From the IMG/VR virus record IMGVR_UViG_3300029448_000260, positions 1 through 30,147 of that record: a stretch of 30,147 nucleotides of DNA; one strand, written 5' to 3'. This document shows, piece by piece, positions 690-9,709 of the stretch; positions within the stretch are counted from its first letter, which is position 1; the number at the start of each line of letters is the position of its first letter. Below the pieces are notes generated by a model, which made no database searches, was not told the origin of the DNA, and worked only from the letters and a program-made list of their open reading frames with translations. Origin of the DNA: a virus. The position numbers and the translations under genes were made by a program.

Positions 690-1691
690 TTATATTTTTT
701 TCCAGTATTTTAATTGTGTTAAAGCTGATAACTTTGAGTGAGTGTTATTACTTATAATAGTTTGTAAGTCTGTTTCACTAACACCTGACATTATTATATC
801 GTTAATGTCCTTATGTCGCATATCTTCAGGCCACACTACCAAGTTGTAATCTTTTTCTATCACTTTGTACATTCTATCTATAATTTCTTTATTACGAGGT
901 TCGTTGTCAAATATATATGTTATCTGGTCGTTAGGAATTGTATTTCTTAAAATTAAATCTGCTCCAGCAGCAGCAATACAATTATCAACAAAAAGGCTAT
1001 CAAGTGGACCCTCTGTGATGAAGATAGGTTTTTGAAAAGAAACTCTTTCCATGCCGTAAACTTTTTGTTTGTTTTCATCTAACTTTATCGTTAAATATTT
1101 TGGTTGTTCATTTCCAAAACTACGACCTTGAAAAGCAAATAGTTTGCCAGTCGTATCATAAAAAGGTATAATAAGTCTAGGATGATCTTTATAAACTTTG
1201 TAAGTATTAGGTTTTACTTTGTTTACTAAAGTCATAAACTTATCACACAGGTATAATATATTTTGATACTTTTTAGGTATCATTCGTTTGTTAACATAGT
1301 TTAAGACAGGATGATCTTCAGGCAATTCGCTTACTTTAGTTAGATCATCTAATATAGTTGTTTCTTTAAACTTTGTAGGTTTAAAGTCAAACTTCGGTTT
1401 TGGCGTCGCTGGAGCCGATTTTTTATATCTTTCTAAAAGATATTGTGAATACATTTGTTGGTCAATAAACTTGATAAAGTTAGCCAAGTTTTGACCATTG
1501 CCACAATTATGACATTTAAAGAACATATCATTTTTAACTCTGTAAAAATATGCTCTTGCTTTTAATTTTGATTTCTTAGAATCTCCACAGTGTGGACATC
1601 TAAAGTTAAACAGATAGTCACCCTTTTGTTTGAATTGACTTAATCTGCCAGATAGATTATTAATAAATTTTAGATCAATATAAGACGACAT
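690..1691 (-). CDS. 61: DNA primase, T4 gp61-like
   Basis: Primase that makes RNA primers for lagging-strand synthesis with the gp41 helicase encoded at 25111-26511. The 333 residues are close to T4 gp61 (about 340). An N-terminal zinc ribbon is visible with Cys32, Cys35, Cys60 and Cys63 (CPHCGDSK ... FKCHNCGNG), as in gp61. A Toprim-like catalytic core follows, with the acidic signature FITEGPLDSLF near residue 225 and YIFDNEPRNKEI further on. The ATG at 1691 has no clear ribosome site, but a sigma70-like promoter ends just upstream, so the transcript may be nearly leaderless. The frame ends 9 bases before nrdA. Family assignment is firm. Confidence 0.93.
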   Translation of the reverse strand: MSSYIDLKFINNLSGRLSQFKQKGDYLFNFRCPHCGDSKKSKLKARAYFYRVKNDMFFKCHNCGNGQNLANFIKFIDQQMYSQYLLERYKKSAPATPKPKFDFKPTKFKETTILDDLTKVSELPEDHPVLNYVNKRMIPKKYQNILYLCDKFMTLVNKVKPNTYKVYKDHPRLIIPFYDTTGKLFAFQGRSFGNEQPKYLTIKLDENKQKVYGMERVSFQKPIFITEGPLDSLFVDNCIAAAGADLILRNTIPNDQITYIFDNEPRNKEIIDRMYKVIEKDYNLVVWPEDMRHKDINDIIMSGVSETDLQTIISNNTHSKLSALTQLKYWKKI

Positions 1692-1703
1692 AGCAATAAT
1701 AGT

Positions 1704-1732
1704 AATATACTATATATGCTCAAAATAGTCAA
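1704..1732 (-). promoter_or_regulatory. Host sigma70-like promoter in front of primase
   Basis: On the minus strand a -35 box TTGACT (1732-1727) and a -10 box TATATT (1709-1704) are separated by exactly 17 bases, in the 43-base gap between the 1735-2163 gene and the primase. The same boxes with the same spacing occur in front of uvsX (27816-27844). The predicted start site near 1697 would leave a leader of only about 6 bases. The boxes are seen directly; promoter activity is inferred. Confidence 0.6.
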
Positions 1733-1734
1733 GG

Positions 1735-2163
1735 CTAACTGCCATTCATCATGTGAATTAAAGGCATAAGGTTTTTAGATACTGCCCACCCTATGACTAT
1801 GGCACCACCAAGTATTAACCATCTATATTTTTCTAATACCCCAACTCTATCATTTATTTCATTTCTGATAGATTTTAACTCACACATCAACCTTTTCTCT
1901 GATATTTCTATTTTCTCAGTCAACTCTTGGTTGACTTTATCAAGTTCATCTGCTCGTTCTCTTATCTTGTTAAAGATAACTTCATCTATCTTTTCTGATT
2001 GGGATAGTTTTTCTTCGTGTACTGCTAACATAGATTTAATAGATGTAGAAACATCTGTCAATTTATCAATAGCCGTATCTAAACGAGTATTAATAGAATT
2101 AACATTATTAACTTCTTGTTTAAGTGATTCGAGTTCTACTCTTATGTCTGTTATTTCTGCCAT
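1735..2163 (-). CDS. Coiled-coil protein with C-terminal membrane anchor
   Basis: A 142-residue protein of no recognised family. Residues 1-110 are highly charged and heptad-like, with repeated Leu/Ile spacing (VELESLKQEV, LDKVNQELTEKIEISEKRL), predicting a long coiled coil. Residues 113-132 (YRWLILGGAIVIGWAVSKNL) form one hydrophobic helix close to the C-terminus, so it is probably a tail-anchored membrane protein with the coil in the cytoplasm or periplasm. It lies between the cyclase end of the curli operon and the primase. A related coil-plus-helix plan appears in 10347-10790. No function can be assigned. Confidence 0.75.
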   Translation of the reverse strand: MAEITDIRVELESLKQEVNNVNSINTRLDTAIDKLTDVSTSIKSMLAVHEEKLSQSEKIDEVIFNKIRERADELDKVNQELTEKIEISEKRLMCELKSIRNEINDRVGVLEKYRWLILGGAIVIGWAVSKNLMPLIHMMNGS

Positions 2164-2305: not shown

Positions 2306-2419
2306 TCAATTGTCGCAACTTCCATAATTTAATGAGGGTCTTCTTTCGTCTTCGTTCTTTTTGTTTTCTAATTTTAAGCCAGTGTAAATTGAGTAAGTAA
2401 AGTTTTTCTTGTTTGTCAT
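2306..2419 (-). CDS. Possible small protein after the cyclase, 37 aa
   Basis: A short frame whose ATG (2419-2417) overlaps the TGA stop of the cyclase fragment in an ATGA junction, the coupling style used throughout this genome. It encodes 37 residues starting MTNKKNFTYSIYTGLKLENK and ending in GSCDN. The composition is ordinary and soluble, unlike the Lys/Arg/Leu-rich alternative frame on the same bases. No ribosome site beyond coupling was seen and no family is recognised. It could be chance. Confidence 0.35.
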   Translation of the reverse strand: MTNKKNFTYSIYTGLKLENKKNEDERRPSLNYGSCDN

Positions 2420-2952
2420 TTCTTAGTATCCTTTTTGCTAGTAGTCTTAACTTGCGTTGTTGAATTAAAGTCATAACCCTCCATAAGGTTTTGTACTGGT
2501 TTATAGATAGTCACTAACTCCTTTTTACCCTTAACTATTATATTGTCTAACTCTTTCGATTCTATATCTGTCAATTGATCTTTTGTGTATGAAGAATAAA
2601 TTAAAGGAGTAACATTACCATATTCATCTTTATAGTTTCTTGTAGCAGCTTCAAGTCTAGCTGCCAAGTTTACAGCGTCACCTATAACAGAATAATCAAG
2701 TCGGTTTTCACTACCCATATTACCGACAATACAAGTTCCTGTATTTACGCCAGAACCTATATTAATATCTGGAAGACCTTTTTCTTTAAATTCTTTTTTT
2801 AAATTATTTGTTTCTATGGCACATTCGATACCTGTTTTAACTGCCATTTCAGCATGATTAGAACAATCTAGCGGTGCGTTCCAAAATGCCATAATACAAT
2901 CACCCATATACTTGTCAATTGTACCACCGTTCTTTAATACTATCTTACTCAT
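2416..2952 (-). CDS. Class III adenylate/guanylate cyclase, catalytic C-terminal fragment
   Basis: The 178 residues match the second part of a class III nucleotide cyclase domain, which makes cAMP or cGMP from ATP or GTP. Visible are GGTIDKYMGDCIMAFWNAPL, with the second metal-binding Asp and a Lys at the position that usually specifies adenine, and YSVIGDAVNLAARLEA, with the Asn and Arg that stabilise the transition state. The first metal-binding Asp is missing because it lies in the preceding frame (2945-4273). The ATG at 2952 overlaps that frame's stop in AATGAGTAA, one base out of phase. Compared with intact CHASE2 cyclases, about 13-15 residues after the GFTPISE motif appear to be absent. 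It may be a translationally coupled second chain, half of a broken gene, or a sequencing artefact. Confidence 0.8.
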   Translation of the reverse strand: MSKIVLKNGGTIDKYMGDCIMAFWNAPLDCSNHAEMAVKTGIECAIETNNLKKEFKEKGLPDINIGSGVNTGTCIVGNMGSENRLDYSVIGDAVNLAARLEAATRNYKDEYGNVTPLIYSSYTKDQLTDIESKELDNIIVKGKKELVTIYKPVQNLMEGYDFNSTTQVKTTSKKDTKK

Positions 2953-4273
2953 TCTTATAGTATTCTGAGATAGGTGTAAACCCTACAATGTCCATAAACA
3001 AGAAAGACATTTCTTTTCTTTCGCCACCTAGTTTTAACTTTTCTGGATTCTTAACAAGTATAGCAACTTGTCGTGGATCTAAATATTTTTCAAACTGTTT
3101 TCTTATTTGTTGTTTTAATTTAAACTCTAAAACAAATCTGTTAAAGATACTATGTAAACCCACAAAGATAATTGTTATTAATATCCAACTTACATCTACT
3201 AACATTAAATTTTGTTGAAACAAATGATGAGAATAAACTATTGAAGCAACTGCTGAAAATATCATTGCTAAAGCAACAATATAATATGGTGTAAATCTTG
3301 TAAGTATTATAAGTGTAATACCTATTACAAAAGCAACTGCTAATTCTATAAGAAAAGATATATCTATTCTTTTAATTTGTTCACCTTGTAATACTGTATC
3401 TAAAGTAGAAGCAGTTAATTCATAAGCATATCTTTCACCTACAGGAGTAGCAATTATGCCACTTAATCCCTCTGCGTTCATACCTATTATAACTGTTTTA
3501 CCAGCAAACTTACTAAAATCATTTTCACTAGCAGATATAGTTTCATATTCTTTATTCCATCTTAACCATATTCTTGCGTTTGCGTCTGTTTTAATTATAG
3601 AAAAACCAGGTACTCTCATGGCTTGAACACCTGCCTCACCTGATTTAACTTGATAACTAGGGGCACCCATAGCAACTCTTATAACTTCTATTGCCATGGC
3701 AGGATATATGTCTTCACCTATTTTCATAAGTAAAGGTATTCTTCTTACAACACCATCTACTTCAGGTGCTGTATTAGATACTCCTACACCACTAGCATTA
3801 TGAAACTCTTTAATAGGTCCTAACATACCACCCCATTCAAATAAGAAAGGTAATGGGTCGTTTACTTTTGCGACACCTCTAGGTACACCGTTTTTGTTGA
3901 TTTGATTAGTTCCTGTTTGTGATATAACTATAGCATATTCTAATACACTTGTCAAGGCATTATCGCCACCTAGTCTGTCTGGCTCACTAAACAGTATAGG
4001 TAATACTATTACGCCTGCGCCTTGTTCTCTTAACTGTACTATTATATTAGCAAGTACGTCTCTTTTCCACGGCCATTGACCATACTTCTCAATTGCTTTT
4101 TCATCTATTGTAACTATACCTATATTTTCTGATACTTCTTTCTTTTCAGATTGTAATAATAAATCAAAAGACTTTAATCTTAATACTTCTTTTATCTGAG
4201 GATCTTTTACACCTATAAATGTTAAAACAAATAAAGTTATAAATGCGATTGTCCAATGAGTTATATATTTCAT
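2945..4273 (-). CDS. CHASE2-domain membrane sensor with start of a cyclase domain
   Basis: A 442-residue sensor protein. An N-terminal membrane helix (WTIAFITLFVLTFIGV, residues 7-22) leads to a long periplasmic CHASE2-type domain with VTIDEKAIEKYGQWPWKRDV and GVGVSNTAPEVDGVVRRIPL, both typical of the family. Two or three membrane helices follow (about 305-375), then QFEKYLDPRQVAIL and the opening of a class III cyclase domain, MSFLFMDIVGFTPISE, with the first metal-binding Asp. The frame stops after EYYKNE, in the middle of the catalytic domain; the rest is in 2416-2952. The ATG overlaps the upstream gene in an ATGA junction. CHASE2 cyclases often lie beside FecR-domain genes in bacteria, and a FecR gene lies two genes upstream here. 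Such sensors are rare in phages. Confidence 0.88.
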   Translation of the reverse strand: MKYITHWTIAFITLFVLTFIGVKDPQIKEVLRLKSFDLLLQSEKKEVSENIGIVTIDEKAIEKYGQWPWKRDVLANIIVQLREQGAGVIVLPILFSEPDRLGGDNALTSVLEYAIVISQTGTNQINKNGVPRGVAKVNDPLPFLFEWGGMLGPIKEFHNASGVGVSNTAPEVDGVVRRIPLLMKIGEDIYPAMAIEVIRVAMGAPSYQVKSGEAGVQAMRVPGFSIIKTDANARIWLRWNKEYETISASENDFSKFAGKTVIIGMNAEGLSGIIATPVGERYAYELTASTLDTVLQGEQIKRIDISFLIELAVAFVIGITLIILTRFTPYYIVALAMIFSAVASIVYSHHLFQQNLMLVDVSWILITIIFVGLHSIFNRFVLEFKLKQQIRKQFEKYLDPRQVAILVKNPEKLKLGGERKEMSFLFMDIVGFTPISEYYKNE

Positions 4274-4584
4274 AGTTCGTTTATTACTTGATTAAATGCT
4301 TCTTCGCCTAGTATGTTATATAATAACACACCTAAGAATATAAACCATAATAACCAAAACACATAATAGCCTAACTTTGTCCAACCTAGTCCTAATATCT
4401 TATATACTTTTTTCATAGGTAAATACTTTTCAAATAATGTAGTAATATCCCATACAAATTTAAGCATAAAAATCCACATTAATGCTCTAAAGTATTTGTT
4501 TTTTATATCAGACACTTTAAAATTTGCTTGTGCTTCTTTTACTTTTTTATTATGTGCTTTATATTTTTCCCAAAGTTTTTTCAT
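4270..4584 (-). CDS. Small two-helix membrane protein in the curli-like operon
   Basis: A 104-residue protein of no known family. The start chosen is ATG 4584, which overlaps the TAA of the previous gene as TAATG; a longer reading from 4611 would run into that gene. The N-terminus is basic (MKKLWEKYKAHNKKVKEAQ). Two hydrophobic stretches follow: ALMWIFMLKFVWDITTLF around residue 35 and YYVFWLLWFIFLGVLLYNIL around residue 73, rich in Trp and Phe. It lies between the large curlin-repeat protein and the CHASE2 sensor, coupled to both, so it may serve the export or signalling system. The role is unknown. Confidence 0.75.
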   Translation of the reverse strand: MKKLWEKYKAHNKKVKEAQANFKVSDIKNKYFRALMWIFMLKFVWDITTLFEKYLPMKKVYKILGLGWTKLGYYVFWLLWFIFLGVLLYNILGEEAFNQVINEL

Positions 4585-6008
4585 TAGTTTTGTGTTACCG
4601 TAGCTGAACAACTAGATGATGAACAACTTTGTATTAAATGATAGTTTTGATCGTTGCTACTATCTTGTGTTAATGTAACTGAGGACGGATTGCCACTTAA
4701 ATGTATCTTTGCGTCATGGCTACCTGAACCATCTTGTGTTACATCTATTGTATGACTATCTGTTAAATTTATATCTAAGAAATGACTACCTGTGCCTTTT
4801 TGATCTATTAAAACATTATTACTACTATCTACATCTAAAAACAATATTTTATTACCTGTTTCTTTTTGATCTATTGTCATGTTATTACTATTGCCATTTA
4901 CTGTAACTTTAGAATAATGGCTACCATTATTATTTAGGTGTATTTGTTCTAGGTCTAAAGTATTTGAGGCACCTGTAATATTTACAACGGCATTTTGATT
5001 TGTGTTTTGAACAATATCTACATCATTGGTATTACCATTTACATCAATACCTATTACATTACCATCATTTGTTTGTGTAAGTGTAATCTCATTATTATCA
5101 CCTTGTATAGAACCAGCATTTGTTAAATCTGAACCTATAATTAAATTATTATCGCCATCTTGTACAATATCTAAATCTAAACCATTACCTGATTGAGTTA
5201 AATAAATGTTATTTGTTGTGCTTGTTTTAGCTGTCGCTGTGTTTACCTCTGTTTGTTGTGATGAAGTTATACCAGCTTGTACAGACGTTATTGTTGAAAC
5301 AGTGCTTGTGGTTACATCGCTAATTAAAGAAGTTAAAAATTCTCTGTTATCTGCTGTGTAATATGATGAGTGAGAGGCAAAGTTTATATCTGTAAATACA
5401 ATTACTTTACCACCTGAATATTGACTATCTAAAGCGTCACCATCAAATAAAGCAACACCACATTGATTAGAGCTATTTTTTGCTAAACATTTACCATTAC
5501 TACCTAAACTAATTACACCTCCAGCGGCAAAGTTTAAATAATCCCAATCACTAGGTAAAGTAGATAATACAGTTGTTGTGTTTAATTTATATTCGTTATT
5601 ATTATAACCTATTGTAACACTTGTACTATATGTTATTGTATTATCACTAGTTACGTCTCTCACAAATGCTTGTATGGCATTGTTTCTATTTCTAAATGCT
5701 GAATTACTATTTTCACCATTTAAAACTATTGTACCACCATTTTGTAATATACTTTTATAATCACTGGTAGGTAATGATGTACCTGTACTATATCTTAAAT
5801 CTATAACTTGTTCATAACTAGACCAACTACTAGGTGCTGAAGTGCTACTAGATACTGTGTGACCTGCGTCTTCTAATCTATTTTTCCATTTGCTATGAGT
5901 GTTACCATAGTTCTGGTGCCATATTCTTATGTCTTCAGCTTTTACTTTATCAACAAAAACAAATAGTAAAATCCAGCCGACAAGTAGCCAAAATAAAATT
6001 TTATACAT
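4584..6008 (-). CDS. Secreted protein with C-terminal curlin-like repeats
   Basis: A 474-residue exported protein. Residues 1-24 are a signal peptide (hydrophobic ILFWLLVGWILLFVFV, cleavage probably after VKA). Residues 25-240 form a globular domain with RIWHQNYGNTHSKWKNRLED, QVIDLRYST, NGGTIVLNGEN and GGKVIVFTDINF, an alternating strand/helix pattern reminiscent of class I amidotransferase-like or ThuA-like folds; that resemblance is inference. From about 265 to the end there are about nine Asn/Asp/Gln-rich repeats such as LDLDIVQDGDNNLIIGSD and NDVDIVQNTNQNAVVNIT, close to curlin (CsgA/B) strand-turn repeats. It ends SCSATVTQN. A TAATG overlap joins it to the FecR gene. It is a likely substrate or cell-surface partner of the CsgG/CsgF pore at 7841-9159. 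Confidence 0.8.
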   Translation of the reverse strand: MYKILFWLLVGWILLFVFVDKVKAEDIRIWHQNYGNTHSKWKNRLEDAGHTVSSSTSAPSSWSSYEQVIDLRYSTGTSLPTSDYKSILQNGGTIVLNGENSNSAFRNRNNAIQAFVRDVTSDNTITYSTSVTIGYNNNEYKLNTTTVLSTLPSDWDYLNFAAGGVISLGSNGKCLAKNSSNQCGVALFDGDALDSQYSGGKVIVFTDINFASHSSYYTADNREFLTSLISDVTTSTVSTITSVQAGITSSQQTEVNTATAKTSTTNNIYLTQSGNGLDLDIVQDGDNNLIIGSDLTNAGSIQGDNNEITLTQTNDGNVIGIDVNGNTNDVDIVQNTNQNAVVNITGASNTLDLEQIHLNNNGSHYSKVTVNGNSNNMTIDQKETGNKILFLDVDSSNNVLIDQKGTGSHFLDINLTDSHTIDVTQDGSGSHDAKIHLSGNPSSVTLTQDSSNDQNYHLIQSCSSSSCSATVTQN

Positions 6009-7123
6009 TATTGTTGATTTATGGTAATGTAATTATCACCATCTCCTAATTGATAGTCCATAATTTCTGTATCGCCTTGTATTACGTTTATAATATAACC
6101 GTCTTCTTGGTTTAATCTTAATACAATATTATTATTTGCTTCGTCTGATCTCATCCATACCCATTGAGGATCCTCATCTAATAAAATAACACCAAACTCA
6201 TCTTGTCCTGTTTTAGTTTTACTCTTTTTATCAAACTCACTTTTCATTTGTATTGCTAATTGTTTATTTAATTCAGCTAAAATATCTTTTAAAAAGTTTT
6301 GTTCTAAAAAATCTAAATCTAAAGAACCAGCAAACTCGTCTTTTTCTTCTTCTAATAAATCAACTTCTAAATCATCAAACTTTAAAAAGTCAATATCTAA
6401 AGCATTAGCAATTACTTTTAGTTTCTTTTCTTTTTCTTCTTGTTCTTCAATCTCTTTTGGTTTACTAACAACTAATAAATTATTAATCATATTTTCATCT
6501 AAACCAAGTATAACAGGTTTTAAAGGTTTACTATCAGGAACATCAACTGTTGTTGCTTGAAAGGCTTGATTCATAATTACAAAACCTGCGTCTGTCTCTA
6601 CTTGAATTTCACCTACATAACACATGCCATCACTATCACAACTAGGTAATAATATAATTGTAGATGATCCTATTTCATCAACAGTCATGGCAAAATCTGT
6701 ACCTCTAACTGCTATCGTAGCAGTAGGTGTTGTAATTTTTACATTTTGTGCTGAAGTTTTTGCTATTTGACCACTAGCATATCTAACTGTTCCTAACGTT
6801 GCCTTTAGAGATAAGGCACCTGTCTTTGTATTAGGGTCGTATATAAATTCATCTATAACTAATTTACTATGTTCAGTTACATCAACTCTAGTATCATCTA
6901 TAAATTGTATGCCAACTTTACCATTACCTGTTTTTACTGTATCATAAGAAAACACATCAAGGCTTTGTTCTACAACAATATCCTTGTCGCCATCTTTCCT
7001 ATCTATTACAGCATTACCTTTATGTAAGGTTACTTCGCCTATTGAAGCAAAACTACTTACGCTTATTAGTAAAGTCGTAAGGATTAAGAGTATGAGCCCA
7101 ATTGTATACCTTAATATTAGCAT
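6008..7123 (-). CDS. FecR-domain exported protein with curlin-like tail
   Basis: A 371-residue protein with a signal peptide (LRYTIGLILLILTTLLISVSSFA). A FecR domain follows at about residues 30-190: TVKTGNGKVGIQFIDDTRVDV, SLKATLGTVRYASGQIAK and KITTPTATIAVRGTDFAMTV are the conserved strands. FecR domains act in the periplasm in signalling or as binding modules. Residues 225-300 are acidic and probably helical (EEQEEKEKKLKVIANALDID, LDLDFLEQNF). The last 40 residues (VLRLNQEDGYIINVIQGD, GDGDNYITINQQ) resemble one or two curlin repeats, which might let it join a curlin fibre. Its position between two curlin-repeat genes and near a CHASE2 cyclase suggests a joint sensing and surface-fibre unit. 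Confidence 0.85.
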   Translation of the reverse strand: MLILRYTIGLILLILTTLLISVSSFASIGEVTLHKGNAVIDRKDGDKDIVVEQSLDVFSYDTVKTGNGKVGIQFIDDTRVDVTEHSKLVIDEFIYDPNTKTGALSLKATLGTVRYASGQIAKTSAQNVKITTPTATIAVRGTDFAMTVDEIGSSTIILLPSCDSDGMCYVGEIQVETDAGFVIMNQAFQATTVDVPDSKPLKPVILGLDENMINNLLVVSKPKEIEEQEEKEKKLKVIANALDIDFLKFDDLEVDLLEEEKDEFAGSLDLDFLEQNFLKDILAELNKQLAIQMKSEFDKKSKTKTGQDEFGVILLDEDPQWVWMRSDEANNNIVLRLNQEDGYIINVIQGDTEIMDYQLGDGDNYITINQQ

Positions 7124-7172
7124 ATAAAATAATACCGAAGAATAAAATTATGTTTAATGTTCCTGCGTCCAT
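7053..7172 (-). CDS. Possible small membrane protein between curlin and FecR genes, 39 aa
   Basis: This frame begins at ATG 7172, one base after the TAA of the curlin-repeat gene, and encodes 39 residues: MDAGTLNIILFFGIILYANI, then a polar tail ending in TNKRK. One hydrophobic helix with a basic C-terminus is a plausible small membrane protein. It fills the otherwise unexplained 50-base gap before the FecR gene but overlaps that gene's signal-peptide codons by 71 bases in another frame. No strong ribosome site was seen. It may be real or chance. Confidence 0.3.
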   Translation of the reverse strand: MDAGTLNIILFFGIILYANIKVYNWAHTLNPYDFTNKRK

Positions 7173-7173
7173 A

Positions 7174-7857
7174 TTAGTCTGTTTGTGATATATCAATATC
7201 TGCGTTATCACCACTTGTTGTTAAAGTAATCATATTGTCATTTGTACCTGATTGTACAATATCGACATCTGCGATACCACCTGTGTGAGTGTGTATCAAA
7301 GTATGTCCGTTTACATCACCATTTCCGTCTATGTCAATTAAGTAATTGTTAGTATCACCATTTACTGTGATTGTTAATATCGCACTATTACCATCAACTG
7401 TAGCGGCAACAACGTTTGAATCAGAACCTGATTGACCAACTATATCAACATCTGCTGAAGTAGCTGATGATGTTTGACCTATATCTAAATCAATATCGTT
7501 TGAGTTACCAGTAAAGTTAATTACTGCGTTTGCTGATCCACATGATGAGTTACCACCTGTACTATCACAATTTAAATCAACGTCATTTGAGTTACCAACT
7601 AAATTAATAACACCAGTATATGTAGCACCGTTAATCTGATATTTGATAACGTTAGAGTTACCTATCTGATCTATGTTTAAAATAGTCGTAGCACCTGTTG
7701 AAGCAGACGCTGTTGTGCTATTACCAACGGTGTTATTTTCACCATCTTGTGTTATATCTAAATCAAGTGAAGCACCTGATTGAGTAACGTAAATATCGTT
7801 AGCATATGACAAAGAAGTCATCAACATTAACATAACGACACTAATTAGTTTGTACAT
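7174..7857 (-). CDS. Curlin-repeat secreted protein, CsgA/CsgB-like
   Basis: A 227-residue protein with a clear signal peptide (MYKLISVVMLMLMTSLSYA, cleavage after SYA). The rest is built of about eight strand-turn repeats of 23-30 residues: YVTQSGASLDLDITQDGENN, ILNIDQIGNSNVIKYQING, VINLVGNSNDVDLN, AVINFTGNSNDIDLDIGQ, and a final VDIVQSGTNDNMITLTTSGD. Regular Gln, Asn and Gly at turns matches curlin repeats, which fold into a beta-helical amyloid. An odd feature is Asp enrichment in place of much of the Ser/Gln, and one Cys pair (NCDSTGGNSSCG). Its start overlaps the end of csgG by 17 bases. It is the best candidate for the major subunit exported through CsgG. Confidence 0.85.
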   Translation of the reverse strand: MYKLISVVMLMLMTSLSYANDIYVTQSGASLDLDITQDGENNTVGNSTTASASTGATTILNIDQIGNSNVIKYQINGATYTGVINLVGNSNDVDLNCDSTGGNSSCGSANAVINFTGNSNDIDLDIGQTSSATSADVDIVGQSGSDSNVVAATVDGNSAILTITVNGDTNNYLIDIDGNGDVNGHTLIHTHTGGIADVDIVQSGTNDNMITLTTSGDNADIDISQTD

Positions 7858-8674
7858 TGTTGTGTATTCCTATTTCTTCTTTTTTAAATTTCCAGTATTG
7901 TTTTTGTTCACCTGCGTGAATAATCTCTAATATAGCAAATTCTATTGCTGTTCTAATAGCATAAGTTACAGGTTCATTTGTTGCGACACCACTTTCTAAT
8001 TCTACTGCCTTTGTGTTCATATCTACAAAGGTAAATATATCGCCACCTTTTGAGTGACTTGCGATAGTTTTAGTGACCTGTGTTGTCAATAAAATCTCAC
8101 CTGTTTGTACTGATACAAGTCTCATAGCAACAGTGACTTGATCTACTCTATATGATTCACTTAATCCTATACCAAGGTATCTAGCACCTTGACCACCTGT
8201 TTGTATATTACTATCAAATCCTACTATACCACCTTCGATAATAAGACCAGCGAACAATAAAGGTTTTAAAATATTACCTACTTGTTGTTCGCCATCGTAT
8301 AATTCTCTTGTTGATCTAATCAATTGTCTTTCTTTGACTAGATTATCTAAACCTTCTCTTTCAACAACTTGAAACCAATCGCCACCTGATACTTTTTTCA
8401 ATGCGTCTATAACAAATAAACTAGCACCTTGTGTTACAGCAGTTGACAATTGAGAAAATTTTGTACTTGGTTTTCTCTGACCTGTCTGGTCAGTAAATCT
8501 ATAAACTGCTACTGTTATAATAGGTTGATTATCTAAATCAGGTAAGTTAAAAAGTCTATCACTTGTAGTTGTTCCTTCTACATATGGTGATTTACCTTTA
8601 TATACTTTGTACTCTTTATTTGTGGCACAACCTGATAAAATCAGACCTAATAATATAACTAAAATTGTTTTCAT
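7841..8674 (-). CDS. csgG: CsgG-like outer-membrane curli secretion lipoprotein
   Basis: A 277-residue homologue of CsgG, the nonameric outer-membrane pore of type VIII (curli) secretion. It has a lipoprotein signal with lipobox LSGC (Cys16). The family's core follows: VAVYRFTDQTGQRKPS, STAVTQGASLFVIDALKK, WFQVVEREGLDNLVKERQLI, GFDSNIQTGGQGARYLGIGL, VDQVTVAMRLVSVQTGEILL and NEPVTYAIRTAIEFAILEII. These blocks occur in the same order as in E. coli CsgG (about 277 residues), so the gene looks full length. It starts 2 bases after csgF and overlaps the curlin gene. A phage could use it to secrete the adjoining curlin-like proteins or to open the outer membrane. CsgE, the usual periplasmic gate, is not seen in this window. 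Confidence 0.93.
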   Translation of the reverse strand: MKTILVILLGLILSGCATNKEYKVYKGKSPYVEGTTTSDRLFNLPDLDNQPIITVAVYRFTDQTGQRKPSTKFSQLSTAVTQGASLFVIDALKKVSGGDWFQVVEREGLDNLVKERQLIRSTRELYDGEQQVGNILKPLLFAGLIIEGGIVGFDSNIQTGGQGARYLGIGLSESYRVDQVTVAMRLVSVQTGEILLTTQVTKTIASHSKGGDIFTFVDMNTKAVELESGVATNEPVTYAIRTAIEFAILEIIHAGEQKQYWKFKKEEIGIHNNVQTN

Positions 8675-8676
8675 AT

Positions 8677-9159
8677 TTAAAACTTAAAGTCGCCTAATGG
8701 CACGGACATTGTAGTCGTTGTACCATCAACGTCTGTTATTGTTAATGTAATTATTTCTGTGCTCGTATCTTTTACCCAATAGATTTGAGCACCTTCAACT
8801 TCAGCAGTACCACTTGTAGGACAAGTAGTTGTACTACTATCACATGAAGTACCAAACATATTGTCAACCAATTGTTTAGATAGGTTGGCATAAATTCTAC
8901 TTTCAACGTTAGTTATAAACTTGTTGATAGTCTTATTTTTCTCTGCTCTTTCAGAGGCAGCTTTTGCTGACTTAATGTCATCAAATACTTTCTGTTCTCT
9001 TTGTACTTCTAATTGATTTATAGATAGCACGTGCTGAGAATACCCATTGCCGCTAAACGCTGGGTTTTTAAAATCGTGTACTAATTCCGATGCCAGTAAA
9101 TTGTATTCAAGGATAAATGTAAGGATCACTACTAACACCATGTTAAATGATGTTTTCAT
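8677..9159 (-). CDS. csgF: CsgF-like curli assembly factor
   Basis: A 160-residue exported protein with a signal peptide (FNMVLVVILTFILEYNLLA). The mature N-terminus SELVHDFKNPAFSGNGYSQH matches the CsgF segment that inserts in the CsgG channel (FRNPNFGG in E. coli). A charged helical part follows (QLEVQREQKVFDDIKSAKAA), then a C-terminal strand region (IYWVKDTSTEIITLTITDVD, TTMSVPLGDFKF) like the CsgF end. Two Cys occur in a Thr/Ser loop (SCDSSTTTC). CsgF couples secretion to nucleation at the cell surface. It is the first gene after a TATAAATA late-promoter motif and directly precedes csgG. There is no ribosome site in front of the ATG. Confidence 0.9.
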   Translation of the reverse strand: MKTSFNMVLVVILTFILEYNLLASELVHDFKNPAFSGNGYSQHVLSINQLEVQREQKVFDDIKSAKAASERAEKNKTINKFITNVESRIYANLSKQLVDNMFGTSCDSSTTTCPTSGTAEVEGAQIYWVKDTSTEIITLTITDVDGTTTTMSVPLGDFKF

Positions 9160-9164
9160 ACTAC

Positions 9165-9172
9165 TATTTATA
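9165..9172 (-). promoter_or_regulatory. T4-type late promoter motif in front of csgF
   Basis: TATAAATA on the minus strand lies inside the 14-base gap between the 9174 stop and the csgF ATG at 9159. The context ATTATAAATAGTA is repeated almost exactly at 16305-16312. In T4 the late sigma factor gp55 reads this box and transcription starts about 6 bases downstream, which here would be at or next to the A of the start codon. This implies late, possibly leaderless, expression of the curli-like operon. Confidence 0.65.
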
Positions 9173-9173
9173 A

Positions 9174-9428
9174 TTAATCTTGTTTAGGATTTTTCTTTTC
9201 GTTTTCTTTTATTGTCAAAACAGTGTCTAATTTTGACTTTAATCGTATAAGATCGTTGTCTAATCTTCTTATTTTATCTAATAAACTTATGAGAGCATTT
9301 GACGCTTCACTTAGTTTCTTTGTAACTTCTTGTGTAATAAATGTATAGATGAAATAGATAAACCAACCCATAGCAAGAGCAGCCAAAGTGGCAAAGCCAT
9401 ATTGATTTAGTATTTCAATTACAGTCAT
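9174..9428 (-). CDS. Small membrane protein with coiled-coil tail (paralogue 2)
   Basis: 84 residues. A hydrophobic N-terminal segment (YGFATLAALAMGWFIYFIYTFI, residues 10-31) precedes a heptad-like amphipathic helix (LSEASNALISLLDKIRRLDN, LIRLKSKLDTVL) and a polar end. It has the same plan and similar residues as the next gene upstream (9428-9709): N-terminal helix with Gly at the same place, then LDND/MNNDLI in the coil. The two are tandem paralogues. Small proteins of this plan resemble YvrJ/BhlA-type or holin-like proteins, but no function is shown. The ATG overlaps the upstream stop as TAATG. Confidence 0.8.
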   Translation of the reverse strand: MTVIEILNQYGFATLAALAMGWFIYFIYTFITQEVTKKLSEASNALISLLDKIRRLDNDLIRLKSKLDTVLTIKENEKKNPKQD

Positions 9429-9709
9429 TAATCTTTTCTAGCGTCATTCTTTCCGTCTGATCTAGCAATTCTATCTAAATCAGGTTTGATGTCAAGTGCT
9501 GAAGAAACTAAAGTGTCTATATGTATCAAATCATTATTCATTGTTTCAATTCTATTTTCTAAACTCATAATGATACCGTGTAGACCTTTAACAGAACCTA
9601 CAACACCTGCTAAAATATATTTTAAAATAATATAAATGAATACACCCATAACTGAAGCAGACGCTACAGGTAATCCAAACTCTATTAGTATTTGAAAAAA
9701 TAAATCCAT
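9428..9709 (-). CDS. Small membrane protein with coiled-coil tail (paralogue 1)
   Basis: 93 residues. The N-terminal helix (LIEFGLPVASASVMGVFIYIILKYILAGVV, residues 8-37) is followed by an amphipathic helix (GLHGIIMSLENRIETMNNDL) and a charged tail. It shares plan and motifs with 9174-9428 (FG/YGF...GxFIYxI, then NDLI), so the pair probably arose by tandem duplication. Stop and start overlap by one base with both neighbours. Candidates are holin/antiholin-like proteins or inner-membrane partners of the curli-like pore next to them. Neither role can be shown from sequence. Confidence 0.8.
   Translation of the reverse strand: MDLFFQILIEFGLPVASASVMGVFIYIILKYILAGVVGSVKGLHGIIMSLENRIETMNNDLIHIDTLVSSALDIKPDLDRIARSDGKNDARKD

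Follow-up and report, generated by a model that had tools for sequence, protein, structure and literature searches.

The IMG/VR virus record IMGVR_UViG_3300029448_000260, whose whole analysed stretch of 30,147 nucleotides (nt) is called the window here, is DNA of a marine T4-like virus of SAR11-type bacteria, and carries a cassette of genes for curli-like (type VIII) secretion. An earlier reading made from the letters alone (the sequence-only reading) had listed eight open reading frames (ORFs) at 2416-9159 on the minus strand, and all eight were located there. Profile searches of the window proteins against Pfam and PHROG supported its assignments of CsgF, CsgG, curlin repeats, FecR and a CHASE2 cyclase, the cyclase domain being of class III; the curlin repeat passed in the second curlin protein (CUR2), whereas that of the first (CUR1) stayed below the cut-off (Table 1). 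Four copies each of the curlin core motif GxxNx[hydrophobic]x[hydrophobic] occur in CUR1 and CUR2, a number reached in 0 of 2000 shuffles, and the CUR1 orthologue in phage HTVC008M is annotated as CsgB. PHROG families matching CsgG, CsgF, FecR and the cyclase (E=1e-65 to 1e-172) indicate that phage families of these four already exist. The surroundings are phage-like, as that reading had also seen, with T4-type genes for ribonucleotide reductase, primase, a DnaB-type helicase, UvsX, a tail assembly chaperone and a spanin-like protein.

Table 1. Features of the curli cassette in the window and late-promoter positions in HTVC008M
Feature	Position	Strand	Support and remarks
TMcc2 (phrog_18771)	9428..9709	-	93 amino acids, one transmembrane helix (TM) + coiled coil; PHROG E=1e-32
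TMcc1, TMcc2 paralogue	9174..9428	-	84 amino acids; phrog_18771 E=2.6e-29
T4-type late-promoter core (putative) TATAAATA	9165..9172	-	exactly 5 nt before csgF ATG
CsgF	8677..9159	-	PF10614 E=8.9e-14
CsgG lipoprotein pore	7841..8674	-	PF03783 E=3.4e-52; lipobox LSGC
CUR1, first secreted curlin-repeat protein (CsgA/B-like)	7174..7857	-	Curlin_rpt 0.0044 (below cut-off) + motif excess
FecR-domain protein, secreted	6008..7123	-	PF04773 E=2.8e-9; one curlin-like repeat at C-terminus
CUR2	4584..6008	-	PF07012 (Curlin_rpt) 5.1e-7; signal peptide + head + curlin body
Small two-helix membrane protein	4270..4611	-	113 amino acids; probable ATG start at 4584; specific to window contig
CHASE2 sensor + start of cyclase domain (5' part)	2945..4273	-	PF05226 E=2.9e-42; phrog_35576 positions 3-449
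Deletion scar, single AGAAT	2951..2955	-	relatives have 53 bp more
Rest of class III cyclase domain (3' part)	2416..2952	-	PF00211 (Guanylate_cyc) E=3.3e-11; phrog_35576 positions 467-625
HTVC008M starts with NATAAATA at 5 nt	6280, 7562, 19456, 31132, 49760, 75559, 142360, 16007(-), 18916(-)		

A new feature of the cassette concerns CUR2, which, as judged from sequence comparison, consists of a conserved curlin body and a head that has been exchanged repeatedly between related viruses. In the window protein, the exchangeable head (residues ~26-240, Rossmann/GATase-like) precedes a curlin body (residues ~265-474) that AlphaFold2 predicts as a beta-solenoid of repeated beta structure, with a predicted local distance difference test score (pLDDT) of mostly 73-88. 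The head was modelled as an alpha/beta fold at lower confidence than the body, and the best Foldseek matches of this low-confidence model were GATase/ThuA-like and weak (E of at least 1.3e-3). No Pfam family matched the window head, hence it has no PA14 domain; its elbow reads GEN, and the nucleophile Cys is absent. The Foldseek matches are weak but consistent, and the head is read as Rossmann-like and non-catalytic. In some relatives the head is of another kind: a PA14 domain exceeded the Pfam cut-off as the CUR2 head in HTVC008M and loci L012 and L038 (E=2.7e-6, 2.6e-8 and 2.6e-10 over these three loci), and PA14-type heads were found in HTVC008M and 17 other loci, with a DDG motif in 18/18. 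PA14 domains with a DDG motif occur in yeast flocculation lectins.

Head types were clustered after removal of a shared linker that otherwise merges two types. Among 101 non-duplicate loci, the CUR2 slot held 34 Rossmann-type, 18 PA14-type, 20 headless and 24 mini forms; three loci had an inserted gene and two lacked CUR2 (L120 was counted among these two, though tallied as its own head cluster). Head and body disagree in their relatedness: the window and L037 agree at 69% in the head and 60% in the body, the window and L009 at 33% and 88%, and L012 and L038 at 81% and 48%. The DNA of L011 and L012 is 98.0-98.7% identical on both sides of CUR2, and yet the two CUR2 genes differ in type, one being headless and the other PA14-headed. 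Between L012 and L013, 21 of 10,775 sites differ, 16 of them within the 622-bp head region. Moreover, on a quick FecR tree of 95 loci, the CUR2 type changed approximately 25 times, compared with a minimum of three for four types. All four lines of evidence point to head exchange, of which no mention was found in passages of PMC7029224, PMC9004378 and PMC9599517. As a separate observation, an extra secreted protein of 247 amino acids with a CUR2-like signal peptide lies between FecR and CUR2 in L100 (5094-5837), and also in L101 and L104; that of L100 looks SoxYZ-like by eye, and Pfam gave no support on the fragment tested.

Another new feature lies in front of csgF, which, by consensus match, follows a T4-type late-promoter core common to tail and baseplate genes. 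In the window and 17 other loci out of 46 examined, TATAAATA stands exactly 5 nt ahead of the csgF ATG, and in 15 further loci of the same set NATAAATA, reported for T4-like cyanophages as their late promoter (PMC2984593), stands 4-5 nt ahead of the csgF start. Genes for a late sigma factor and for a transcription factor of late promoters are present in HTVC008M, which has NATAAATA exactly 5 nt before 9 of its 197 starts (0.2 expected), including those of csgF, a baseplate wedge gene, the tail-tube cap, the tape measure and the DNA end protector. The T4 late element ends ~6 bp before the transcript start, and since the core stands 5 nt before the ATG, the late mRNAs of pelagimyophages may be leaderless, beginning at the ATG. 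No mention of a late promoter at the cassette was found in passages of PMC9599517. Over the whole window, the string ATAAATA is depleted (7 seen versus 25 expected), and all seven copies lie on the coding (minus) strand.

A third new finding concerns the secretion pore: the phage CsgF retains residues required for binding CsgG. Like curli pores of the outer membrane, the window CsgG has a lipoprotein signal, and its alignment with the solved Escherichia coli CsgG spans its length (phmmer, 9.8e-44). For CsgF, comparison with solved structures returned no usable match, and a direct alignment with E. coli CsgF was used. The CsgG-binding residues F7, P10 and F12 of the E. coli protein are conserved in the aligned phage CsgF proteins, most of which have Y in place of the pore residue N17. 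In E. coli CsgF, the F5D, F7D and F12D changes abolished CsgG binding, while N17Y at the pore left curli formation intact (PMC6957492). This pattern speaks for a phage CsgF and CsgG that still fit together, against the suggestion in PMC9004378 that their interaction has been lost. That study, which described the csg set of the OM43 phage Melnitz, put forward a lysis pore, that is, a CsgG repurposed in a pinholin-like or secretin-like manner, to which the other proteins would be secondary. A late-promoter core at csgF and a spanin-like gene near the window cassette would suit such a pore; however, the curli-type lipoprotein signal and full-length alignment of CsgG and the kept binding residues of CsgF argue against it, and it leaves unexplained the curlin proteins encoded next in line in nearly every readable locus and the diversification of their heads. 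We regard it as quite improbable, and the late opening of the outer membrane that the sequence-only reading had listed among possible roles is likewise less likely than fibre export.

That reading had also noted the absence of CsgE from the window, where we did not find it either, and this extends to 0 of 8 records searched, including the complete HTVC008M and Melnitz genomes, with a positive E. coli control. CsgE, a periplasmic plug, is also absent from alphaproteobacterial systems and hence not universal (PMC9599517). An idea raised in PMC7029224 and PMC9599517, that an open CsgG admits nutrients or siderophores into the infected cell, draws on complete phage genomes being without this plug, but CsgF, the curlin proteins and the head exchange would then have no explanation. 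Iron regulation gains no support from the FecR protein, since it is secreted and the window has no sigma factor to partner it. Such an uptake pore is highly improbable in our view.

Gene identities, conserved order, CsgF-CsgG contact residues, the late-promoter core and head exchange are all seen at the level of sequence. On this basis, we consider it probable that the virus carries a late-expressed curli cassette of pelagimyophage type that presents a rapidly changing binding head at the surface of the infected cell, and we infer that the cassette serves export, fibre formation, adhesion and signalling. Late in infection, CsgG would form an outer-membrane pore capped by CsgF, through which the two curlin-repeat proteins would be exported onto the cell surface. 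CUR1 would be the conserved fibre subunit, and CUR2 would carry a binding head on a curlin body, Rossmann/GATase-like in the window and PA14 lectin-type in HTVC008M; this head is exchanged through recombination, much as the tips of tail fibres are among phages. Such swapping suggests that the head probably binds a variable target on other cells or particles, and the outcome might be cell aggregation, 'sibling capture' (proposed for pelagimyophages, in which csgF/csgG were reported; PMC7029224) or a surface coat. A periplasm-to-cytoplasm sensing arm would consist of FecR and the CHASE2 cyclase, the latter being broken in the window. A bolder form of this proposal, which is tentative and rather doubtful, is that the virus encodes a capture apparatus: amyloid fibres made late on the doomed cell and tipped by exchangeable adhesin heads would net the next hosts, the heads being traded like tail-fibre tips and the mRNA possibly leaderless.

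Several points weigh against the favoured explanation. CsgE, without which E. coli exports less curli, is missing; a folded CUR2 head would need unfolding to cross the narrow CsgG-CsgF pore; the Rossmann-like head call comes from a low-confidence model (best Foldseek E=1.3e-3); the csgF promoter was recognised by its consensus and not by mapping a transcript; and some relatives have only a mini or headless CUR2, so the head is not essential. Furthermore, no clumping was seen in cultures of Melnitz, whose CUR2 is headless (PMC9004378). The same fibres could also have another purpose, namely coating the infected cell against the adsorption of other phages (superinfection exclusion), as proposed in PMC9599517. 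Although a surface coat fits all the gene identities, exclusion usually acts early whereas csgF has a late-promoter core, and the repeated swapping of a binding-type head is more easily explained by a variable target than by a passive coat; we therefore think this purpose unlikely. Among the roles that the sequence-only reading had listed, head exchange and the late-promoter core speak for the gathering of cells. For phages of the bacteria that are most abundant in the ocean, three papers have left it open whether curli genes serve for fibres, a pore or uptake; a conserved fibre body whose binding-type head is exchanged again and again, combined with a late promoter, favours a role in recognition at the exposed surface.

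As for the putative sensing arm, the sequence-only reading had described a curlin-like tail on FecR. An alignment bears this out, in that the protein ends in a single conserved segment resembling a repeat, with N and Q positions, whereas the curlin motif test alone was not significant; this end suggests contact with curlin subunits. The AlphaFold2 model of FecR reached a pLDDT of only 37, and no fold is claimed for it. The same reading had seen a CHASE2 cyclase in two frames; the CHASE2 and cyclase identities hold, but the two frames are one gene broken by a deletion rather than an operon design. Two conserved cyclase motifs are 76 nt apart in the window and 129 nt apart in 5/5 relatives measured, and this 53-bp loss removes ~17 codons and shifts the frame. 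In the relatives, the flanks of the missing stretch suggest a 5-bp direct repeat; slippage or assembly collapse is possible. The class III cyclase residues (both metal Asp, Lys and N-x3-R) are present in the window, but spread over two frames. Most likely, judging from the sequence, the window cyclase is inactive or the deletion is an assembly artefact, and the suggested change in host cyclic nucleotides cannot apply to the window contig as assembled. A programmed frameshift or a two-subunit enzyme was rejected, as 17 codons are missing and relatives are intact.

If the deletion is real, the cassette might be in the course of being lost, and the suggested 5-bp repeat around the 53-bp deletion would accord with this. 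We give this idea very little credence, since all other cassette genes are open and conserved and L044 likewise has an interrupted cyclase beside otherwise intact genes (the gene is uninterrupted in 26 relatives). An assembly artefact is also possible: no second contig of the window population was found with an exact 33-nt probe taken from next to the deletion. Between CUR2 and the cyclase, the 113-amino-acid membrane protein had no tblastn relative in any fetched locus or in the phage collection. Small, apparently unrelated membrane proteins occupy this gap in the window (4270-4611), L002 (8054-8269), L012 (11315-11545) and L014 (4945-5127).

The sequence-only reading had named a chimeric assembly as what would undo its claim, and synteny was informative on this point. 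An IMG/VR scan with the CsgG protein gave 39 loci, across which the order of TM/coiled-coil genes, csgF, csgG, CUR1, fecR, CUR2 and CHASE2-cyclase is largely kept, and HTVC008M and Melnitz hold the complete cassette. The downstream junction with DUF7201, primase and ribonucleotide reductase is common to the window, L005, L009 and L011-L013, and the upstream spanin gene is also present in L009, L011 and L012. Identical junctions in independent contigs rule out a chimeric window. At this junction (window 690-2163), the DUF7201 coiled-coil ORF and the primase ORF jointly correspond to one family of 461 positions, phrog_451. TMcc1 adjoins csgF in most relatives, and among 50,697 phage records the TMcc1/TMcc2 genes were found only in the six full phage genomes that bear csg. 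In the divergent clade of L035, L038 and L039, both TM/coiled-coil genes remain linked to the cassette but are located downstream of the cyclase, on the other strand.

The FecR profile was found in at least 596 viral stretches. A FecR scan of 84,980 genomes, which used two peptide patterns only, revealed three curli-bearing contigs in bins (L044-L046), all phage-like, one of them from a bin with four csgF contigs. CsgF was found in 7 of 385 alphaproteobacterial genomes, and the five bacterial csg loci inspected, a small sample and not proof of absence, had no FecR or CHASE2 cyclase within ~10 kb. No bacterial source of the whole cassette was found among these contigs and loci. In the Rhodobacteraceae bin G005, four different phage-like contigs (C129, C173, C200 and C240) bear csgF, which indicates that phage curli cassettes contaminate bacterial bins. 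A 'Salmonella phage' record with csgG (L043, OR851715) was set aside as a 1.5-kb unverified fragment, probably host DNA.

Compared with known systems, the window cassette shares with csgBAC/csgDEFG of E. coli the CsgG pore, the CsgF motif and curlin repeats; it differs in having no CsgC, CsgD or CsgE among its genes, in the added FecR and CHASE2 cyclase and in a CsgF that is ~20% identical. The FecR-CHASE2 pairing resembles that of an Acidobacteria metagenome-assembled genome (L047), where a CHASE2 protein follows the FecR gene ~0.6 kb later; no csg genes were seen there, and the phage FecR differs in its curlin-like tail. A virus-borne curli export cassette is itself already known. The sequence-only reading had rightly pointed to curli genes in pelagimyophages (first seen in PMC7029224), but its suggestion that the full combination may be undescribed does not hold, as PMC9599517 describes the cassette in podo- and myophages (CsgF, CsgG, CsgA/B, FecR, a second CsgA/B and adenylate cyclase (AC), without CsgE) and the Melnitz record annotates most of it. 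The window follows the same order as that pelagiphage cassette, CsgF-CsgG-CsgA/B-FecR-(CsgA/B)-(AC), also without CsgE, and departs from it in the broken cyclase, the unique small membrane gene and the Rossmann-type CUR2 head. Where PMC9599517 puts a 'histidine kinase' ahead of the podophage cassettes, the window has two phrog_18771 proteins, which at 84 and 93 amino acids are too short for one. HTVC008M (gp011-gp019, NC_020484) has the same gene order and TATAAATA-N5-ATG at csgF, but its cyclase is intact, its CUR2 bears a PA14 head, and its cassette lies between the single-stranded-DNA-binding protein and tail genes, whereas that of the window lies before the primase.

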